This document shows positions 38,147 to 46,754 of a stretch of DNA of 64,000 nt, in pieces (position 1 is the first letter of the stretch; every line of letters starts with the position of its first letter). Origin of the DNA: Lactobacillus pasteurii DSM 23907 = CRBIP 24.76 (lineage in GTDB: Bacteria > Bacillota > Bacilli > Lactobacillales > Lactobacillaceae). The translations under genes and the position numbers were made by a program. The notes below the pieces were generated by a model. It was not told the DNA's origin. It did not search any database and was given only the letters and a program-made list of their open reading frames with translations. The stretch is taken from assembly GCF_000297025.1 (NCBI RefSeq), contig NZ_CAKD01000001.1:98944-162943 (forward strand), in the 5' to 3' direction.

Positions 38147-38200
38147 AGCGGTCGAAAAAACGGTCGAATCATGAATCGACCGTTTTTTTGCGTGCGTATT
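38135..38200. repeat. 66-bp direct repeat, right copy, with terminator
   Basis: It overlaps the last four codons and the stop of the AlbA_2 gene and supplies its terminator (ACGGTCGA/TCGACCGT, T7). One mismatch against 36759-36824. Confidence 0.85.
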
Positions 38201-38234
38201 TGGTAGATATACTTATCGTTACCTTTTTTAGATA

Positions 38235-38607
38235 TCAAGCTAATTTAACAACTTGAGTAAATTGAGCCCTTTCTTCATCACTAACTTTATGCGCAACTTC
38301 AATTATATATTGGAAATATTCTAGCATAATAAGTGGACAAGTCTTTAGATTCTAACACAGAAAATAAAGATTTATGACCTTTCAAAATTATAGACATCAA
38401 TAAACTTAGCGCGAGCATCTTTTCATTCGAAGCTTCTCGATTTACCACAGGTTTTATATACGATACCGCAACTAGCTCGTTATTACTATTTTCGATATTT
38501 ATTTTTTTATAGTTATTAAATATGTCTGTGTTGCTATCAACTCTATCTTTTATATTTCGGTTAATAATTGCGCTAAATACTTTTGATATTTGAATCTGTT
38601 TATAATG
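38235..38607 (-). pseudogene. Relic open frame of unknown origin
   Basis: This is the content of the 546-bp gap between the AlbA_2 and rgg genes. A minus-strand frame of 102 codons (38607 to a TGA at 38299-38301) has no start codon before the middle. A second frame overlaps its end: ATG at 38327, 30 residues MLEYFQYIIEVAHKV..., stop at 38235. A frameshift joining the two would give one helical protein of about 125 residues. I do not recognise it. Base use is as AT-rich as the lanthipeptide genes. Confidence 0.3.
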
Positions 38608-38633: not shown

Positions 38634-38665
38634 AAGGTGTCCCAGCTGTGGGACACTTTTTCCAC
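38634..38665 (-). terminator. Terminator of rgg
   Basis: Perfect stem GTGTCCCA/TGGGACAC around a 4-base loop at 38637-38656, with flanking T and A runs, after the rgg stop at 38693. Confidence 0.75.
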
Positions 38666-38692: not shown

Positions 38693-39538
38693 TTAAGACT
38701 TTTGTCCTGCCTTGACTTGCTGAAATGAATACTCACATACCTCGTGCAAGAGATCCAGATTATTCATCTTCAAAAAATCAAGCTCTACTTTTATCTTGCT
38801 GTCATCTCGACTCTCACAGTAGTCCAGCAACAAGGTCATAAAGTAGTACCTAATTCTTTCAAAAGCATATTTTTGCGGAATCAAATCACTACTAAAATAC
38901 GATAGTAGCCTTTTTGCAAGATCAGTATTTCCTCTGATCAAGATATAAACTGCATTAATCAAAGTATTGTAGACGATTTGGTAATTTTCGTTATCCTGTA
39001 ATTCGGCAAATTTGACATAATTTACTATTTGAGCACTAATTCTAAAAATATCTGAACTATCTAATAACAAAGCTGTATTGCCAAAATTCATAAAGTCTTC
39101 GTAATACCAGTCTTCAATCTTTAAAAAATAGTTCTTCAATCTTTTTCTATTAGTCTGAGTAAAAATATTCTTGCCAGTTAATTCCATATAACAATTGCAA
39201 GCCAAGGCAACCTTCCAAAAGTCTCGTCCAGATAAAATTACGTGATCCTGAAGTTGACAAATTCTCAATAAGAAATCTGTATTGTTTTCTAAATATGCAT
39301 CTTCAACTTCACGAATGTCTTGGACAATTTCCTTAGCAAGGCCATTATTAATCAATTCAATCGGTCTGATGTGTAGTTTCTTAATCAACTGCAACACCTG
39401 ATTGAAGGATAGATTATCCTGGCCTCGCTCCCAGCGATCTAAACTCGATTTAGAGGTTATGCCCTCGCTTGTCAATCGTAAACTTTTATTTCTATTTTGA
39501 CGTATCAATCTAAATTTATTACCATAGCTATTTTCCAT
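38693..39538 (-). CDS. Rgg/GadR/MutR-type transcriptional regulator
   Basis: 281 residues from the ATG at 39538 (AGGACTCC upstream); a longer frame to 39559 would overlap the divergent peptide gene. Residues 1-65 are an XRE helix-turn-helix (FRLIRQNRNKSLRL, SKSSLDRWERGQDNLS). The rest is an all-helical repeat domain, as in Rgg proteins that bind short peptide pheromones. A 37-residue hydrophobic peptide gene starts 15 bp away on the other strand, the arrangement of Rgg/SHP quorum-sensing pairs. It is the likely regulator of the lanthipeptide genes at 39817-44756. Confidence 0.85.
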   Translation of the reverse strand: MENSYGNKFRLIRQNRNKSLRLTSEGITSKSSLDRWERGQDNLSFNQVLQLIKKLHIRPIELINNGLAKEIVQDIREVEDAYLENNTDFLLRICQLQDHVILSGRDFWKVALACNCYMELTGKNIFTQTNRKRLKNYFLKIEDWYYEDFMNFGNTALLLDSSDIFRISAQIVNYVKFAELQDNENYQIVYNTLINAVYILIRGNTDLAKRLLSYFSSDLIPQKYAFERIRYYFMTLLLDYCESRDDSKIKVELDFLKMNNLDLLHEVCEYSFQQVKAGQKS

Positions 39539-39539
39539 A

Positions 39540-39550
39540 GAGGAGTCCTC
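39540..39550. promoter_or_regulatory. Palindromic Shine-Dalgarno shared by rgg and the peptide gene
   Basis: GAGGAGTCCTC is a palindrome around its central base. It places a GAGGA ribosome binding site in front of both divergent ATGs (39538 minus, 39554 plus). The two 5' leaders must overlap, so each promoter lies in the opposite gene. Confidence 0.75.
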
Positions 39551-39553
39551 AAG

Positions 39554-39667
39554 ATGCAAAGATCTAAATTAATCAGTTTATTAAGCAAGTTAATCATTGG
39601 TGGCGGCATCGTAATCAGCCATATCGCCTTGCCAGCAATCACTGCATTATCTACTTTTTCACATTAA
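39554..39667 (+). CDS. Short hydrophobic peptide, putative Rgg pheromone precursor (copy 1)
   Basis: 37 residues, starting MQRSKLISLLSKLI. A basic N-terminus is followed by a hydrophobic stretch with a Gly triplet (residues 16-18), Pro27 and the end LSTFSH. GAGGAG sits ideally upstream, and a hairpin at 39730-39758 follows. Divergent to, and almost touching, an rgg-type gene, as SHP pheromone genes are. It is longer than most SHPs, so the active peptide would be an internal or C-terminal piece. An identical second copy lies at 45047. A small toxin or bacteriocin-like peptide is the alternative. Confidence 0.6.
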   Translation: MQRSKLISLLSKLIIGGGIVISHIALPAITALSTFSH

Positions 39668-39727
39668 CACTTAACTATAAATTATAACAGGATAGCGATT
39701 GTAACAAAAATCTTGCTCATAGAAAGC

Positions 39728-39760
39728 AAAAACGGCTGAAAATTATTCGACCGTTTTTTT
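39728..39760 (+). terminator. Terminator of peptide gene copy 1
   Basis: Imperfect stem AACGGCTGAA.../TTCGACCGTT with T7. A member of the ACGGTCGA-type hairpin family found at four places in the island. Confidence 0.65.
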
Positions 39761-39816
39761 GATGTCAAAAAAATTCTTTTCGAAAAGGAAATTAAATTAG
39801 CTAAACTTTTCGTCAA

Positions 39817-40542
39817 TTACTTTATTTCCATATCTTGTAGAACAATTCTACTCACATTTAGTCTAATTTCAATTGGGGCGTGTGGATCTTGAGTAAATAT
39901 CTGAATCATTTCTACGTTAGATCTTGGATAGTAAAACATTTCCTCAAACTTTATCCAATTCTCGTTAGTAAATAAATTCGGATATTTTTCTTTCGCGACT
40001 ATCAAAGCAATTAGATCCGGCATTATTTCATGAACAATTCTTTTTACATTTAGCTTTAGTCGCTTTTGATCAACTAATAAAAACACATCATCGTATAACT
40101 CAGCAGCATATGATAACAGATTTACAATCTTTTCTTTTTTATAGCCTTGTACTTGATCTATCAACATGTGTGACAGTTCATGAAATACAAAAAAATCATA
40201 TACTATCCTTGTTTCGTTGCTTATTTTGGACAAATACAAGAACTTTATAGGCATAATTATCTTATTAGTTTTCCTACTATAACTAGGCGCTATCCCTTTG
40301 TCAATCACTTCAAAACTTGGTTTAAGGTTAGATTTGATCTGCAATCGCTCACAGACAACTTTCTCAAACAGATCTAAATTATTAACAAAGTCCTGTTTAT
40401 AGTTGCTAACATCTACTTTTATATCACAAATCCCATATCCTAATAACCGTGCAACCTCCGATACATCGCTACACTTTACTTTGACACTTTTATTACCTAA
40501 AAGAAGAAGCCAGTTATTATCTTGCATGTAATCTTTGACCAT
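39817..40542 (-). CDS. HExxH metallopeptidase, candidate leader peptidase
   Basis: About 241 residues from ATG 40542 (an ATG at 40527 is also possible). The zinc motif HELSH lies near residues 121-125, followed about 45 residues later by HEIMPD, whose Glu or Asp could be the third ligand. This resembles the ImmA/IrrE-type gluzincin layout. No signal peptide or membrane segment, so it is cytoplasmic. It overlaps the exporter gene by 26 bp as the last gene of the lanthipeptide operon. The exporter lacks a C39 peptidase domain, so this enzyme is the natural candidate for removing the leader. That role is inferred. Confidence 0.65.
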   Translation of the reverse strand: MVKDYMQDNNWLLLLGNKSVKVKCSDVSEVARLLGYGICDIKVDVSNYKQDFVNNLDLFEKVVCERLQIKSNLKPSFEVIDKGIAPSYSRKTNKIIMPIKFLYLSKISNETRIVYDFFVFHELSHMLIDQVQGYKKEKIVNLLSYAAELYDDVFLLVDQKRLKLNVKRIVHEIMPDLIALIVAKEKYPNLFTNENWIKFEEMFYYPRSNVEMIQIFTQDPHAPIEIRLNVSRIVLQDMEIK

Positions 40543-42112
40543 CAAACTCTAAAACCTTAATATTACCTTTTTCAATCAAGTCTTCATCTAAATTATGTGC
40601 AACTTCAATCACTGTTATCGGAAGATTATATATTAGTTGACGAATTTTTCTTGCATTTGTTTTATCCAAACTAGAAGTAATTTCGTCTAAAAGCAATATA
40701 GATCTTTGTCGCAACAATCCCCTCGCAATTGTTAATCTTTGTAATTGTCCCCCTGACAAATTATCGTTAATCACAAATGATAACGGATCTTCGCCTAATT
40801 CTTTATCCAAATGGACCAACTCCAAAACCTTATTTAAAGTTTCGATATCATAGTTTTGATAAAGTGTAAGATTATCTTTCACAGTTCCTACAAAATACCA
40901 TGGCTTTTGTGAGATCAAAATAGAATCAGATAATTTAATTGGACTCCCTTCTAACAAAACTTGACCTTTTCTTGCTTTTAATTGACCAGAAATCAGACTC
41001 AAAATAGTCGATTTTCCAACACCAGACGGGCCCGTTATTATAACCTTATCCAATTTCGCTATATTTAAATTTAAATTCGAAATGACAGTCTTATCTCCAT
41101 ACCCAGCAACTACATCTTTTAACTCTATAAAAGATTTTTCTGGAGTCGATATACTTTGTACCTCTTTTTCTTCAGAAGATAATTCATAATACTCAATTTT
41201 TCTGATCTTTTTTGTACCTGTTATTTGAGTATAATAATTAGTCAACTCCCTAATTCCCCCGAGAACATGATCAGCAGTCAAAGATAGAGTTACTACAGTT
41301 CCAATTTTGACACCTAGCCAACCTTTAGCAATACATATCAATCCGATAATAATCGGAAACACGCTTGATAATACTGCACCTATCCAAGTGTAATACTGAG
41401 CGGTAAATCTAGCATGATTTAATTGGTAGTATGCCCCTTCTTCAGATCTGAGTTTTTTATCAAAAATATTCAAAAAAGCTGGCATTACGCTATATTTGTT
41501 AATTTCAAGTTTTCCTGAAGTTATTTCCTTAATAATTGAAATGAGTTTATTATTTTTGTTACTCCAATCTTTAGTACTGCCACTTAATTTATTACGGGAC
41601 AAATAAGAAGGTACCATACTGATAAATGACATCAAAATATAAATACTACCTAGATATAGATTAGTTCCCAATACTACAATTGCTGTAGATATAATCGTAA
41701 TAAAGCATTGAACTAAATAAAATATTGGTTCAAAATATCTTTGCTCAATTTGAGAAGAAATATTTGTCAGCAAATTAAGTGATTCTGTAGTATCTGTTGA
41801 AATATCCTTTAATTGATATTTAAATAGCTCTGATTTAAGTTTGGTGTTTAAATGTTTTATCGCAAGCTGCTTACAGACTAAAAACAAATATGCTGAAGTG
41901 TAGGTTACTAAATATGCTAAAAAAATACCCAAACCAAATATCAATACCTCATTCAAATTGTTGAAATCAATACTAGTTATTTTCCCTAAAACATATCCAT
42001 TTATTACTCCTTCAAAGGAACTAAAAACAGATAGTAATAAAATGGCAGTTAGTAAAAGAGATGGAATAGACTTCAATACCCACTTCAAATCAATAGTCTT
42101 CTCTTTCTTCAT
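40517..42112 (-). CDS. ABC exporter (fused membrane and ATPase domains) of the lanthipeptide locus
   Basis: 531 residues. An N-terminal membrane domain has about six segments (residues 12-290). The ATPase domain has Walker A GPSGVGKST, signature LSGGQLQRL, Walker B ILLLDEITSSLD and the H-loop VIEVAHN. There is no N-terminal C39 peptidase domain, so it exports but does not cut at a double-glycine site. It overlaps the synthetase gene by 23 bp and the metallopeptidase by 26 bp, so the three are translationally coupled. It probably exports the modified peptide and may give self-protection. Confidence 0.88.
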   Translation of the reverse strand: MKKEKTIDLKWVLKSIPSLLLTAILLLSVFSSFEGVINGYVLGKITSIDFNNLNEVLIFGLGIFLAYLVTYTSAYLFLVCKQLAIKHLNTKLKSELFKYQLKDISTDTTESLNLLTNISSQIEQRYFEPIFYLVQCFITIISTAIVVLGTNLYLGSIYILMSFISMVPSYLSRNKLSGSTKDWSNKNNKLISIIKEITSGKLEINKYSVMPAFLNIFDKKLRSEEGAYYQLNHARFTAQYYTWIGAVLSSVFPIIIGLICIAKGWLGVKIGTVVTLSLTADHVLGGIRELTNYYTQITGTKKIRKIEYYELSSEEKEVQSISTPEKSFIELKDVVAGYGDKTVISNLNLNIAKLDKVIITGPSGVGKSTILSLISGQLKARKGQVLLEGSPIKLSDSILISQKPWYFVGTVKDNLTLYQNYDIETLNKVLELVHLDKELGEDPLSFVINDNLSGGQLQRLTIARGLLRQRSILLLDEITSSLDKTNARKIRQLIYNLPITVIEVAHNLDEDLIEKGNIKVLEFDGQRLHAR

Positions 42113-44588
42113 CTTTTAACACCTCCGTCAACAAATCTAGAATAAAAATTATCCCTAAATTTCCAGCTCCTAAATCCTGTTTGATATCAATTCCCTGATC
42201 TGCTTTCCATCCTAGCTCAGATTTAGTAGATCTAAAATTAGTTAAGATATATGATTGCCAGTATTTTAATATATGTCTGACTCTTTTTCTATTAGTCAAC
42301 GAAATTCTTCTATTTTTCATTCCAATTATCAATGGCAAAATGAATCCTGCCACACCATTATTAACACCACTATTAGCCATAAATGGAACATCATATAAAT
42401 CTAAAAAATTATTTTTTAAGAATCTACTATCGCTAGTACACATCGCATAAAGTACTAATCCGGCTCCTCCTGTCATCAAAGAGGGATACACTACTCCGTC
42501 AGTATTTAATCCTATAAAGATACCATCCACAAAGGATTCATTATAAATATTATAAATTTTGTTTCTCACTTTATCTAATAAAGTCTCTCTGACCATATAT
42601 CCATTAGATACTAAATATTCTAAAGTTAATCCAATTCCTATATCCCCATACTCCAAATTACTCTCTGGAACCATATCAATATTTTCTTCTATGGATAATA
42701 ATAAATCTTCTATAATATTACTGAAGTTCGGATAATTTTTTATTCTGCTTAAATACTCTAAGCCTAATATTATCCCACTAATTCCATTGGCCAAACTAAG
42801 ATCTTTGTTTAAGCCCTCCCTATGGTATTCTATAAGAAGATCTACTAATGGCATATTTTCTTCATAGCTGCAATCTAAATTTGCTAAGACACATGCCAAA
42901 CCTATTTTTCCAAAAAATAGTCCCTGGCTGATTAATTTCTTATGATATTGTTCTAGAATCCATATTCGACATCTTTTTCTATCTTCTTTGTTTAGTTTTT
43001 TTATACTGTTCAAGTACAGCAAAGTGCCTGGAATACCGTATGACAAAGATAGATTTGACTTAATATAATTTGTAGTTGATATATCAGCAATAGTACCACA
43101 CTCTATTTTTTTGATGATACTAGTTATAATTGCATCCTTCGCCGGTTGAATTATTTTATCTTGTTCAAGATCTGCTACTGTCTTATCTATAGACAATAGA
43201 TCTAAAATCATGTTAACCATATTTTTCAAACTAGGATATTGGTTCACAATAAGATTTAAATAGTACTTTATTAGTTTAGGATCTTTATCAACTTCTTGAT
43301 TTTTTTGAGTCAGTATCCAAAACATAGACATTCCTAATTTATAGTTATCTGCTTCAAGTTCTGAAAACTTTTCTTCTGATACAGGTGCAAACAACTCTGT
43401 TTTTAAATTCAAATATGGTTCTCCCATCCCTATTTTATGAACACTCTCGATATCAATTGCGTGAATATTCAATTCATCATCAACAATAAAGTTATCAGGT
43501 GATACATCACCGAATACATATCCCCTACTATGAAGTTCTTTTATTAACTTTTTTAAATTACAAAATATCATACGTACTTTTTGCAAATCTAAAGTAGTAA
43601 CTATCTTTTTTGGTTTAGTTATCCCCAATTTAGCCGAATAGTCTCTCAAACTAATTCCATTCACAAATTTTTCAGCCAGAAAATAATCTTTGCCAATATA
43701 AAAGTCATCTATAAAATCTGGCAAATTCAAAATACTACTTAATTCTGTATTTAATAGATTACTTTTCTCATTTTTCTTAAGTAGTTGTTGTGTACCTTCA
43801 GGGTATTCTCTACTGGATAGAGCACCATACTTTGCCATTTTTATGATTACTTTAGTATTTTTATTTTTACCTAAGTATATATTTCCACTTGCGAGTCTCC
43901 TAAGTATTTTATGGACTTCAATCTCTTTTCCATATGTATCTCCTATAAATACTAGGCTCGTATTTTTCAGATCATTATGAGTATCCCCGCTAATGAATTG
44001 AGGTATCATAATATTCTTAGGAACAAAGAAATATGGTCGACGTACATCTTCTACCTTTATTCCTAAATTATCTACGATATAACTGCGAACAGTATTATCA
44101 TCATCTACCTCAATAATTGGATTAATTGCACCATATCTGTAATGCACTATTGTAGAATTTCGAAATGAGTTATCACTAGGAACCTTTAATCCATCAAATT
44201 TTTTCAATGCATCTGTTAACTCTACTAAAATACACTCAAAATCATCTATATTATTTGGATATATAGTTATTATTTTTCCAAACTGAGACGGTGATACAAC
44301 TTTCCCAGTCATAACCGCATATCCTTCCAAACTCCAAATAAATTTGAATGATGTTTTTTTCTTATCACATATTGTATTTACTACTTTTAGAGTAACTTCA
44401 AAATTCGATAATAACGGAGAAACATGTATTTTCCAACCAGAAATTTTATTATTTAGACCATAATTTACATATTGAAATATTCCCTCTCTGCTTATTCCCC
44501 CCTGAAATTTAACTTTATTGATAAATGAAAATGCGTGTTGGCTTTCAAATTCTTTATATATACCCAAGTTAGTAGTTATTTCTCTCAT
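42090..44588 (-). CDS. Class III-like lanthipeptide synthetase (LanKC: lyase-kinase-cyclase)
   Basis: 832 residues. Residues 1-200: lyase domain, with the family's WKIHVSPLLSN, GKIITIYP and HYRYGA blocks. Residues 210-450: protein-kinase-like domain with VIIKMAKYG and the catalytic loop GYVFGDVSPDNF (Asp361), then AIDIES. Residues 490-832: LanC-like alpha-toroid with repeated glycine turns (SYGIPGTLLYL, ANGISGIILGL, NGVAGFILPL). I see no Cys-Cys-His zinc site: the spot near GWKADQGIDIKQDLGAGN lacks it. That places it with class III rather than class IV. It would phosphorylate and dehydrate Ser/Thr of the precursor at 44637-44756 and form the ring. The gene is very AT-rich. Confidence 0.9.
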   Translation of the reverse strand: MREITTNLGIYKEFESQHAFSFINKVKFQGGISREGIFQYVNYGLNNKISGWKIHVSPLLSNFEVTLKVVNTICDKKKTSFKFIWSLEGYAVMTGKVVSPSQFGKIITIYPNNIDDFECILVELTDALKKFDGLKVPSDNSFRNSTIVHYRYGAINPIIEVDDDNTVRSYIVDNLGIKVEDVRRPYFFVPKNIMIPQFISGDTHNDLKNTSLVFIGDTYGKEIEVHKILRRLASGNIYLGKNKNTKVIIKMAKYGALSSREYPEGTQQLLKKNEKSNLLNTELSSILNLPDFIDDFYIGKDYFLAEKFVNGISLRDYSAKLGITKPKKIVTTLDLQKVRMIFCNLKKLIKELHSRGYVFGDVSPDNFIVDDELNIHAIDIESVHKIGMGEPYLNLKTELFAPVSEEKFSELEADNYKLGMSMFWILTQKNQEVDKDPKLIKYYLNLIVNQYPSLKNMVNMILDLLSIDKTVADLEQDKIIQPAKDAIITSIIKKIECGTIADISTTNYIKSNLSLSYGIPGTLLYLNSIKKLNKEDRKRCRIWILEQYHKKLISQGLFFGKIGLACVLANLDCSYEENMPLVDLLIEYHREGLNKDLSLANGISGIILGLEYLSRIKNYPNFSNIIEDLLLSIEENIDMVPESNLEYGDIGIGLTLEYLVSNGYMVRETLLDKVRNKIYNIYNESFVDGIFIGLNTDGVVYPSLMTGGAGLVLYAMCTSDSRFLKNNFLDLYDVPFMANSGVNNGVAGFILPLIIGMKNRRISLTNRKRVRHILKYWQSYILTNFRSTKSELGWKADQGIDIKQDLGAGNLGIIFILDLLTEVLKDEEREDY

Positions 44589-44597
44589 AATAATAAA

Positions 44598-44626
44598 AGC
44601 TGGATACCTAGATCCAGCTCTCCTTT
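44598..44626 (-). promoter_or_regulatory. Shine-Dalgarno and hairpin in front of the synthetase gene
   Basis: AAAGGAG (44620-44626) lies about 31 bases before the ATG at 44588. An 8-bp perfect stem AGCTGGAT/ATCCAGCT (44598-44619) separates them. Folding the hairpin would leave 9 bases between site and start. It could also be a weak terminator that lowers synthetase expression relative to the precursor. Confidence 0.55.
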
Positions 44627-44636
44627 CACAGAAAAA

Positions 44637-44756
44637 TTAATTAGTCTGGTTAAAACAATTTTGACTTAGAGTTGACCAACTAAGTTGCTCAGACTCCTTA
44701 TCTTCAGCTTCTAACTTTTCTAATAATTCTTCTAATGCTTCAGTGTTTTTGGACAT
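44637..44756 (-). CDS. Lanthipeptide precursor peptide (39 aa)
   Basis: 39 codons with a strong AGGAGGTT eight bases upstream, 48 bp ahead of the synthetase gene. Residues 2-24 form an acidic amphipathic helix (TEALEELLEKLEAEDKESE), like class III leaders. The rest is a Ser/Thr/Asn-rich core (LSWSTLSQNCFNQTN) with a single Cys34. Ser28-x2-Ser31-x2-Cys34 fits the class III pattern Ser-x2-Ser-x(2-5)-Cys that yields a labionin or methyllanthionine-type ring. There is no double-glycine site. It is too short for usual gene calling. The final structure is inferred. Confidence 0.8.
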   Translation of the reverse strand: MSKNTEALEELLEKLEAEDKESEQLSWSTLSQNCFNQTN

Positions 44757-44891
44757 CGTTAACCTCCTATAATTCTAATAGCCCGAAATATTCAGGTAAT
44801 TAAATAACAACTTTGGATCTTGATTAGATATTAAATACTATCCACGAGATCTAAAATTATTATGGCACAAATATTTGTAAAAAATAAATAT

Positions 44892-44907
44892 GTCCCATAT
44901 ATGGGAC
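44892..44907. promoter_or_regulatory. 16-bp perfect palindrome upstream of the precursor gene
   Basis: GTCCCATATATGGGAC, 136 bp ahead of the precursor ATG, with CATAAT-like -10 sequence downstream on the minus strand (about 44868-44873). A possible operator for the Rgg-type regulator. The half-site GTCCCA also occurs in the rgg terminator. Confidence 0.4.
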
Positions 44908-44956
44908 GGATTTATTGATCTTAAATTATAAACAGTTATATATTTTGTAATTTTTT

Positions 44957-45031
44957 CTAATCTATCAATCGTAAACTTTTATTTCTATTTTGACGTATCA
45001 ATCTAAATTTATTACCATAGCTATTTTCCAT
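44957..45031 (-). pseudogene. Truncated duplicate of the rgg 5' end
   Basis: The ATG at 45031 and the first 22 codons are identical to rgg. Identity then ends and the frame reads I-D-stop (TAG 44957-44959). It lies in repeat copy 2. Its promoter, which must sit inside the peptide gene, points toward the lanthipeptide precursor 200 bp further on. Confidence 0.85.
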
Positions 45032-45229
45032 AGAGGAGTCCTCAAGATGCAAAGATCTAAATTAATCAGTTTATTAAGCAAGTTAATCATTGGTGGCGGC
45101 ATCGTAATCAGCCATATCGCCTTGCCAGCAATCACTGCATTATCTACTTTTTCACATTAACACTTAACTATAAATTATAACAGGATAGCGATTGTAGCAA
45201 AAATCTTGCTCATAGAAAGCAAAAACGGC
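44965..45229. repeat. 265-bp direct repeat, copy 2
   Basis: Same sequence and orientation as 39472-39736, 5,493 bp away, with one mismatch. Recombination between the copies would remove the synthetase, exporter, peptidase and precursor genes while leaving one intact rgg and peptide pair. Confidence 0.95.
45047..45160 (+). CDS. Short hydrophobic peptide, putative pheromone precursor (copy 2)
   Basis: Its 37 codons are identical to copy 1 at 39554-39667, including the GAGGAG binding site. The regulator beside it is truncated, so this copy could only raise peptide dosage or be a by-product of duplication. A terminator hairpin follows at 45222-45256. Confidence 0.55.
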   Translation: MQRSKLISLLSKLIIGGGIVISHIALPAITALSTFSH

Positions 45230-45258
45230 CGAATGATAAATCGACCGTTTTTTTGCGT
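45222..45258 (+). terminator. Terminator of peptide gene copy 2
   Basis: Stem AACGGCCGA/TCGACCGTT with T7 then GCGTGCATATT, the same family as the hairpins at 36759 and 38135. Confidence 0.75.
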
Positions 45259-45265
45259 GCATATT

Positions 45266-45661
45266 TTAAGCTTCTTGTAAGGTCTTACCCTTAGCTTCAG
45301 CGATGAATTCTTTGAGTTCATCATCAGTGAAGTAGTCGCCATATTTGTGTTTTGCCTGTGTAAAGATAAAACTATCTTACATTGATGCAGCGATTAGCGC
45401 ATCAATAAAATTCTTCACACCAACCAGCCGTTCTCTTTCTTCGCCATACAAAGTCCAGTCTAATTTGTTCGTTTCGTAACTCACGATGCTCGCCCTCCTG
45501 TCTTGGTTTAGTTCGTTAACTCTATTTTGAGCCCAAATAAATTGCTCATTCAGGCTAACTTTTTGATCATTCATCAGCTTTGCCAGTTCTTTAAGTTCTG
45601 CGCTTTCGCCGGCAAAGTCTCCTTTCGAGTTAATGATAACCTTTGTGGCACCGTCGATCAA
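45266..45661 (-). pseudogene. Rpn-type nuclease, truncated copy with a nonsense codon
   Basis: Matches the C-terminal half of the intact gene at 45714-46628 (GATKVIINSKGDFA, LNEQFIWAQNR, DRRASIVSYE). The frame stops at TAA (45377-45379) but continues in frame as DSFIFTQAKHKYGDYFTDDEL to LQEA and a second stop at 45266-45268. The catalytic N-terminal half is missing. Probably a tandem duplicate in decay. Confidence 0.85.
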
Positions 45662-45713
45662 TTTCGCAGAAATGAGTGCAACAAAAAGACGAGATTGCTC
45701 TCGCCTTTGTTAT

Positions 45714-46628
45714 CTATGCTTCTTGCAAGGGCCTGCCTTTGGCTTCATTCATGAATTGTTTGATCTGTTTATCAGTGAAGTATTTGCCGTATCTCTTTTG
45801 GGCTTGAGTGAAAATCAGCTCATCAGAAAGTCCACTTTCACTAAAACCGATAATCAAGTTGTTTAGACCTTCACATCTTGCTTCGTTGCGACCTTCTTCA
45901 AGACCTTCTTCACGGCCTTTCTTTATGCCTTCTTGTCTGCCATACAATTCACGGTCCATCAGTTTTGCTTCATAACTCACAATATCCGACCTCCTGTCTT
46001 TGTTTAGTTCATCAATTCTGTTTTGTGCCCAAATAAATTGCTCATTCAGGCTAACTTCTTTATCATTCATGAGATTCGCCAGCTCTTTAAGTTCTGCGCT
46101 TTCGCTGGCAAAGTCTCCTTTTGAGTTAATGATAACCTTTGTGGCACCGTCATTCAACTTTAAGTCACTATCTTTGGTATCGACGGTTTTGAAGAAATGC
46201 ACTGCTCGATCATCTTTCTTGCTAAAGGCATCGGATGGATCTTCCGAACAAAGAAAGATGATATAAGTGTCTGGTAATTGAGAATAGTCTTTGCCGACTT
46301 TCAAGATTCCATCTCCATCGATGATCGACTGATAGTAACGCACCCTGCGCCCTAAGTAAGCACTAGCTGTCGTCTGCATCTCGATGTCAAAGATTCGTCC
46401 TCGATCATCAACTACCTTGATGTCTAAGCGAATATCCTTAGCTTCGCGATCATCATTGCCGATGGCATCTTGCTTATGGAATTCAATGATTTTCTTGATG
46501 TTCAAGTCAGGCAATATAATCTGCAAGAGATACAGGCAGAACTCCTGGTTTTCCATCACCCAGCCAAAGATCTTATCCTCAGTGAAAGGATATTTCTTCA
46601 GCGGAACGTATTTTGCTTCATGAGACAT
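45714..46628 (-). CDS. Rpn family recombination-promoting nuclease/putative transposase
   Basis: 304 residues from ATG 46628 (GAGGAAAC upstream). The N-terminal half is a PD-(D/E)xK nuclease domain: DIRLDIKVVDDRGRIFDIEMQ has the Asp and the Glu-x-Gln variant of the third motif, and YYQSIIDGD follows. The C-terminal half is helical and charged, with a KKGREEGLEEGRNEAR repeat. Rpn proteins nick DNA and raise RecA-independent recombination in E. coli; here that is by family. The gene sits at the right border of the accessory island. Confidence 0.85.
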   Translation of the reverse strand: MSHEAKYVPLKKYPFTEDKIFGWVMENQEFCLYLLQIILPDLNIKKIIEFHKQDAIGNDDREAKDIRLDIKVVDDRGRIFDIEMQTTASAYLGRRVRYYQSIIDGDGILKVGKDYSQLPDTYIIFLCSEDPSDAFSKKDDRAVHFFKTVDTKDSDLKLNDGATKVIINSKGDFASESAELKELANLMNDKEVSLNEQFIWAQNRIDELNKDRRSDIVSYEAKLMDRELYGRQEGIKKGREEGLEEGRNEARCEGLNNLIIGFSESGLSDELIFTQAQKRYGKYFTDKQIKQFMNEAKGRPLQEA

Positions 46629-46754
46629 GAAGTTTCCTCGTTTCAAATAGTAGTAGAGGTAAAATTACCCCTCCATTATCTAAATACGTAAAAAATCTCG
46701 ATTTATTTTTTTGATTTTTCTATCTTTACTATTTCTTAAGATTTTGCCGGATGC

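Follow-up and report, generated by a model that had tools for sequence, protein, structure and literature searches.

A probable Rgg-controlled class III lanthipeptide operon of Lactobacillus pasteurii and its putative zincin-type maturation peptidase

Background

Does a peptide-sensing regulator of the Rgg type control lanthipeptide production in Lactobacillus pasteurii DSM 23907, and which enzyme would remove the leader of such a lanthipeptide? The question is raised by a compact locus in a 64,000-nucleotide stretch (positions 98,944 to 162,943 of contig NZ_CAKD01000001.1), hereafter the window. In the order of minus-strand transcription, the locus comprises a relic of the 5' end of an rgg gene, a palindrome, and the genes for a precursor peptide, a LanKC synthetase, an ABC exporter and a protein with an HExxH motif; these are followed by a plus-strand gene for a hydrophobic peptide (SHP-like; shp) and an intact rgg gene. 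The locus is probably an Rgg-controlled class III lanthipeptide operon that carries its own small, zincin-type maturation peptidase; its regulation, chemistry and product we infer. Such a locus would bring lanthipeptide chemistry and peptide signalling of the Rgg type together in bacteria other than streptococci, with a candidate operator and a candidate peptide. Since the protease responsible is often encoded elsewhere than in the cluster (PMC8960859), leader removal in class III is a known gap, for which the 241-residue HExxH protein encoded beside LanKC is a direct candidate.

A sequence-only reading of this DNA had described a minus-strand set of precursor, LanKC, exporter and HExxH genes with overlapping ends, and all of these parts are present. 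The exporter gene shares 23 bp with the LanKC gene at one end and 26 bp with the peptidase gene at the other. The precursor, exporter and shp genes are preceded by ribosome-binding sites, with none obvious before those for LanKC and the HExxH protein. Judged by family scores, chance is excluded for LanKC, the exporter and Rgg; the HExxH protein is without such a score, but has an intact relative of 34% identity.

A class III-type synthetase

The LanKC gene (42090..44588, minus strand) encodes 832 residues arranged as a RamC_N lyase, a kinase and a cyclase free of zinc ligands. Pfam assigns 121 bits to RamC_N and 36.8 bits to LANC_like, and Pkinase reaches 21.8 bits, under its cut-off of 31.7. 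The best NCBIfam family of all is lanthi_synth_III (NF038151), and the best PDB sequence matches are the class III LanKC entries 8sao, 8sap and 8sam (E 7e-28). For residue checks, the catalytic, zinc-position and labionin-linked residues of ThurKC were taken from PMC10604976. A PDB chain of a Bacillus thuringiensis LanKC (P0026), 23% identical to the window protein, is taken as ThurKC because all 15 residues looked up in that source fall on the right letter. In alignment with P0026, all eight ThurKC lyase residues are kept in the window LanKC (K53, H55, K82, K96, K105, D139, R151 and R183). The kinase catalytic set is present as K, D, N and D(F/I)E, with K250, D361, N366 and D379 invariant in both LanKC alignments; E381 matches the glutamate of the ThurKC DF(G/E) motif, and R275 of ThurKC is replaced by Q268. 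The zinc-ligand positions of the cyclase are occupied by M705, N743 and N744, as befits class III, and not by the Cys/Cys/His of class IV (LanL). Family, structure and residues thus agree with the class III assignment of the sequence-only reading.

A screen of 5.8 billion proteins, in which 7995 candidates were scored, put the nearest relatives at 40-43% identity; L. helveticus is the name attached to one partial relative (41%). Of 75 congeneric genomes, 28 have a LanKC match at E 0.001 when fragments are counted. A single-sequence search of named genomes found nothing; alignment A1, searched against the same genomes, found seven distant LanKC loci at 24-29% identity, with one 41% fragment. 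Viral contigs yielded one distant LanKC (24% identity); among plasmids, distant LanKC matches came from 77 records, each at less than 60% identity.

Other architectures occur within the genus. LanKC is split in two genes at L129:3323-6089 (genome G069) and L130:3464-6230 (G021), with 502 residues that hold RamC_N and Pkinase followed by 370 residues that hold LANC_like, the domains being those of a Pfam scan of both halves in L129. These loci also carry an Rgg-like regulator, a 45-residue precursor-like peptide and a LanT-type exporter. Separated halves of ThurKC work in trans (PMC10604976). LanKC-like proteins of 436-447 residues with RamC_N and without LANC_like are encoded at L122:4541-5851 (G073), L148:4998-6341 (G057) and L149:5040-6356 (G022), two of the three also having Pkinase; upstream of those in L122 and L149 are open reading frames of 83-89 codons with ribosome-binding sites and no Pfam family above cut-off.

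Precursor and exporter

The precursor gene (44637..44756, minus strand) is put forward from its open reading frame, its ribosome-binding site (AGGAGG) and a relative in genome G059. It encodes the 39-residue peptide MSKNTEALEELLEKLEAEDKESEQLSWSTLSQNCFNQTN, in which an acidic leader, ALEELLEKLEAEDKESEQ, precedes S28-x2-S31-x2-C34, Cys34 being the only cysteine. Class III precursors are marked by the core motif SxxSx(2-5)C together with a helical leader. Between the precursor and LanKC genes, a stem-loop of 11 pairs (44595..44622, minus strand) was found in a terminator-like scan that returned five sites in the region against 2.4 expected; it may act as an attenuator.

A direct search with the precursor in 74 other congeneric genomes returned nothing below E 0.3, two matches at E 0.35-0.37, and missed the G059 relative; a plasmid search returned no precursor relative. 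The G059 relative is a 46-residue peptide encoded between an Rgg-type regulator (Rgg_C, 33.7 bits) and an exporter 50% identical to that of the window. It aligns without gaps over 30 residues with the precursor, the two having EeLxWSTxS (hereafter ELxWSTxS) in common, and none of 5000 shuffles of the G059 peptide scores as high.

The exporter, LanT (40517..42112, minus strand), is a 531-residue protein to which Pfam assigns ABC_membrane and ABC_tran and no N-terminal C39 peptidase domain, which bears out what had been said of it from the sequence. Its best NCBIfam family is the streptosactin exporter GggC, at 192 bits against a cut-off of 750. An intact copy of 88% identity is present in the genome of a related species, G015. 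Between the two copies, the ratio of nonsynonymous to synonymous change (dN/dS) is 0.089, at the high end of the 0.014-0.09 of five flanking genes, and the proportion of synonymous differences, 0.468, is lower than their 0.516-0.717; continued selection would fit these values, perhaps with exchange between species.

The G015 exporter (L044:6125-7778) has stayed intact where the synthetase, precursor and peptidase are gone or reduced to scraps, and is a candidate for exporter-based self-protection. With the exporter kept and the synthetase and precursor lost, G015 amounts to a natural test of that role.

The regulator, its peptide and a candidate operator

The intact rgg gene (38693..39538, minus strand) encodes 281 residues from an ATG, or 288 from a TTG at 39559. 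Pfam gives Rgg_C 48.3 bits (cut-off 27) and HTH_3 20.2 bits, just under the cut-off of 23; NCBIfam TIGR01716 reaches 36.5 against 36.9. As in Rgg/SHP systems, a small hydrophobic peptide gene adjoins rgg: shp (39554..39667, plus strand) starts divergently behind the ribosome-binding site GAGGAG and encodes 37 residues. Such pairs recur in the genus. There are 52 rgg-like places at E 1e-20, and 12 of the 25 examined have a divergent, hydrophobic open reading frame of 25-50 codons, led by Lys or Arg, whose start is no more than 26 bp from that estimated for rgg; with the same 130-bp span, 153 of 5000 random windows gave such a frame. To illustrate, one of the 12 pairs, in G033, lies beside a different LanKC and exporter. 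The Rgg of G015 is 66% identical to that of the window, and the first 21 residues of its peptide differ at two positions; the C-terminal part is much more divergent, as a changing pheromone would be.

Around the LanKC places of the genus, eight of 33 stretches have an Rgg-like regulator and six a LytTR/kinase pair; the 33 include L134 and L150, which gave no LanKC match in that comparison, and G021 and G073 are among the genomes counted twice. 'Rgg-like' is a loose label here, because among the six of these eight regulators that were scanned Rgg_C is above cut-off in just two, below it in three and absent from one. A link between Rgg and lanthionine genes does have precedent, since the regulon of pneumococcal Rgg939 includes a lanthionine biosynthesis protein (reviewed in PMC13361665).

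A second shp gene (45047..45160, plus strand), identical in protein, lies at the other end of the locus within a 269-bp direct repeat of 99% identity. The first copy of the repeat (39472..39740) holds the 5' end of rgg, the shp gene with its promoter-like site and the start of a terminator-like element, as found by self-comparison of the sequence and the terminator scan. The second copy (44965..45233) holds the whole shp gene and the first approximately 29 rgg codons, and is interpreted with the help of G015. That genome has the same chromosomal neighbours as the window, with purB/purA to one side and transporter and amidotransferase genes to the other; the interval holds shp-rgg, a palindrome, the last 26 codons of LanKC, the intact exporter and a 26-codon scrap of the peptidase gene. 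Since rgg there lies directly before the lan relics, rgg likely preceded the lan genes ancestrally. The right-hand repeat is then probably what remains of an rgg that stood before the operon and later lost its body, and the present layout, to judge from this related species, arose by a rearrangement that left the intact shp-rgg unit at the other end. Two copies of a hydrophobic peptide gene had been noted in the sequence-only reading; both exist and encode the same protein, and what changes is their meaning, for they probably mark the two ends of a duplication that was rearranged and in the course of which the body of one rgg was lost.

The palindrome GTCCCATATATGGGAC (44892..44907), upstream of the lan genes and followed by TGC-CATAAT 28 nt on (counted from TGGGA), is the predicted Rgg operator. 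A second, GTCCCAGCTGTGGGAC (38639..38654), lies just 3' of the intact rgg with TATAAT 25 nt on and may be an operator, a terminator or both. These are the only two GTCCCA-N4-TGGGAC sites in the window, against 0.02 expected. The whole genome has seven such sites, one of them mismatched, against three for a control, and so is not clearly enriched in this relaxed form; four further perfect sites lie on contigs C7 (twice), C17 and C19. Four of the 25 rgg loci have a relaxed form of the palindrome 39-110 bp beyond the point where the rgg alignment stops; elsewhere in the stretches concerned it does not occur. Across the 75 congeneric genomes, TCCCATATATGGGA has six sites in four genomes (control, 0). 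Four of these sites directly follow the 3' end of an rgg-like gene or relic, with a co-directed gene next in line; that of the window follows a relic, and that of G016 a gene split in two frames. In Streptococcus mutans, PdrA has the predicted site AATTGTXTATATGGGAT near the -35 position of its shp and wgkA promoters (PMC8092268), and this site and the lan palindrome have TATATGGGA in common.

In L154, L156, L157 and L021, the palindrome comes after an rgg-like gene and ahead of a co-directed gene for a product with a secreted-like start; these co-directed genes are likely other targets of this type of regulator.

Several findings speak against an operator. Two of the six TCCCATATATGGGA sites are not beside rgg (G046 at position 1201749; G047, contig C9). 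The -10-like hexamer seen 25-30 nt after the palindrome in five of seven scanned sites (those of G046 and G047 fall under threshold) comes from a loose scan of A+T-rich DNA that had no control. The shp promoters of the locus lack the palindrome, whereas both PdrA promoters share the predicted site, and no box common to the shp and lan promoters was found. The available text of PMC3150281, of PMC13361665 (bar a reference title) and of PMC12445099 (where 'motif' is used in other senses) has no relevant mention of such a site. The palindrome is also terminator-like in several loci, being A/T-flanked in G015, G046 and G047, and may be just a terminator.

The best-surviving alternative is that the lan genes lie outside the control of this Rgg: the palindromes would be rgg terminators, the regulator would have served one or more decayed genes on the left, and lan expression would be constitutive or otherwise driven. 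Both palindromes of the window are terminator-shaped, as are those of G015, G046 and G047. A candidate for a decayed target lies 3' of the intact rgg (38238..38327, minus strand), where a possible C-terminal tail relic of another exporter (IEVAHK...) is 54% identical over 22 residues to the exporters of L146 and L147, at an E value of 3e-4 for a search confined to the loci collected in this analysis. When the 490 bp to the left of rgg were compared with the lan genes, the matches were weak, the best being terminator repeats. Against this alternative, a terminator is not bound to any one sequence, and still the same TCCCATATATGGGA is met 3' of an rgg-like gene or relic in each of four species; TTTGTG(C/T) follows the palindrome in four of seven aligned sites; and in G015 rgg directly precedes the lan relics. 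We therefore consider the alternative rather unlikely and favour control of the lan operon by Rgg, as the sequence-only reading had proposed: the family of divergent peptides, the palindrome before the lan genes and the gene order of G015 all point that way, with activation as the predicted mode.

At the two ends of the locus lies a 46-nt terminator-like element (38156-38201 and 45221-45266, 91% identical). Adjoining the locus, at 45377-46646, are two related open reading frames, of 310 codons and a 94-codon partial copy, with a 222-nt repeat at 84%; they have no blastn match in the G015 contig.

The putative maturation peptidase

The gene for the HExxH protein, or LanP (39817..40542, minus strand), encodes 241 residues from an ATG and has its HExxH at 121-125, followed by E172xxPD176 and DxHAxIExR. 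HExxH, ExxPD and DxHAxIEAR are conserved among its relatives. The protein is predicted to be a zincin-type peptidase; zincins of the gluzincin type combine HExxH with a Glu ligand further downstream in a zincin fold. No Pfam family is above threshold, and there is no significant PDB sequence match. The putative metallopeptidase family DUF4344 scores 13.4 bits for the window protein and 22.7 bits for the G010 relative, both below the gathering score of 29.6. Alone, the protein retrieved only itself from 5.8 billion proteins; a two-sequence alignment added two matches, P0035 being nearly the same as the G010 protein of that alignment. Weak matches occur in G022 and G073 (E about 0.002), and no match was found in viral contigs, in plasmids, or in the 33 LanKC-locus stretches of the genus, some of which are short contigs.

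Three relatives of the protein are known, and in the two with readable context, G010 and G059, the gene follows an exporter and LanKC is absent. It looks, therefore, as if the HExxH protein belongs with the exporter rather than with LanKC. The sequence-only reading had counted it as a peptidase of the LanKC set; the gene and its motif stand, and the tie to LanKC would give way to one with the exporter.

The chemistry and the peptidase assignment meet objections of their own. LanKC scores 266 bits against the class III equivalog cut-off of 575 (NF038151), so that it is not claimed as an equivalog of the members of that family. The residues linked to labionin formation in ThurKC (F770, D771, R519 and D657) are not kept; nor, according to PMC10604976, do labionin producers conserve R519 and D657. 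The best structural matches of the HExxH protein are metallopeptidases, from a model that is middling (pLDDT, the predicted local distance difference test, 51; pTM, the predicted template modelling score, 0.51), with no Foldseek match passing E 0.001 and with families absent from the match list not thereby excluded. A single-sequence fold of the protein (pLDDT 34.5) was useless and was discarded. Finally, the G059 peptide keeps ELxWSTxS with no Cys and with no LanKC match in its genome, so its Ser and Thr residues may be conserved for another reason: unless G059 has lost its LanKC, the block is not explicable by LanKC alone.

This last objection leads to a second alternative, in which the core of the locus is a peptide-exporter-metallopeptidase unit independent of LanKC, LanKC is an accessory decorator, and ELxWSTxS is a site of recognition or cleavage by the exporter or the peptidase. 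The exporter and HExxH genes of G010 and G059, the Cys-less G059 peptide, and the intact exporter of G015 next to a LanKC cut down to a scrap would all fit. The G059 peptidase gene is frameshifted, however, and G010 has no recognisable precursor, so that each may be the remnant of a cluster from which LanKC has been lost; and in the window the LanKC gene is intact and overlaps that of the exporter. We regard this explanation as improbable. The last alternative, that the HExxH protein confers immunity or degrades incoming peptide, draws on the absence of a Pfam family above threshold, its function being a prediction from sequence, and on the ability of enzymes from outside the cluster to trim class III leaders (PMC8960859, PMC10885120). 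We doubt it equally, because the exporter has no C39 domain and, among the proteins of the gene set, the HExxH protein alone resembles a peptidase; because its gene overlaps the exporter gene here and follows it in G010 and G059; and because in G015 the exporter survived decay and this protein did not, the reverse of the outcome expected for an immunity protein.

A proposed mechanism

Under the favoured reading of an Rgg-controlled class III operon, the two shp copies would give rise to a hydrophobic peptide that is exported, trimmed and re-imported and then binds Rgg, as is known for the family. Rgg is predicted to bind the palindrome at 44892-44907 and to activate the lan promoter. LanKC would phosphorylate Ser/Thr within the precursor's C-terminal part, eliminate the phosphate and add Cys34, so that the product, given the conserved catalytic residues, would carry one lanthionine-type or labionin ring within SxxSxxC. 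LanT would export the ringed product, and the HExxH protein would remove the leader, a role proposed for it because the exporter lacks a peptidase domain and the gene set encodes no other peptidase.

A bolder and more tentative idea, which we would not yet back, is that the exporter and the HExxH protein form a portable maturation module. The latter would represent a new family of dedicated peptidases for ribosomally synthesized and post-translationally modified peptides (RiPPs), one that reads ELxWSTxS and serves both a LanKC-free peptide and a class III lanthipeptide, here switched by Rgg through the TCCCATATATGGGA operator. If true, this would carry the Rgg/SHP-RiPP logic of streptococci into the lanthipeptides of lactobacilli.

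Comparison with known systems

No Rgg-linked class III lanthipeptide, nor any product of this combination of genes, turned up in the openly licensed literature, a search that did not extend to the HExxH protein itself; this agrees with the statement, made from the sequence, that no such product had been described. The class III leader peptidases AplP and EryP (M1), PttP and ThurP (M16-type), FlaP (S9) and AmyP (S8) differ from the window protein, a product of 241 residues whose gene adjoins that of LanKC. The remaining LanKC loci found in the genus, linked to LytTR/kinase pairs or to Rgg-like regulators and in some cases with a split LanKC, have LanKC in common with the window and mostly an ABC exporter as well, but their LanKC is about 23-35% identical over the aligned parts, and the 33 stretches hold no HExxH protein match.

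ThurKC and the class III synthetases of Bacillus have the same lyase-kinase-cyclase order, the same lyase residues and the same lack of zinc ligands. ThurKC differs in its low identity to the window protein and in the letters at the zinc positions (S/F/D, against M/N/N here), and its system has a two-component zinc leader protease, with no mention of Rgg in the available text of PMC10604976. The streptococcal radical SAM RiPP (RaS-RiPP) clusters of tryglysin and streptosactin, which are controlled by Rgg/SHP, belong to another genus; no radical SAM domain is found in the six window proteins scanned, LanKC stands in its place, and the hydrophobic peptide has 37 residues. What these clusters share with the window is the arrangement itself, an Rgg regulator and a hydrophobic peptide beside a RiPP gene set, together with an exporter whose closest family, below cut-off, is that of streptosactin, and the TATATGGGA contained in the predicted PdrA site.

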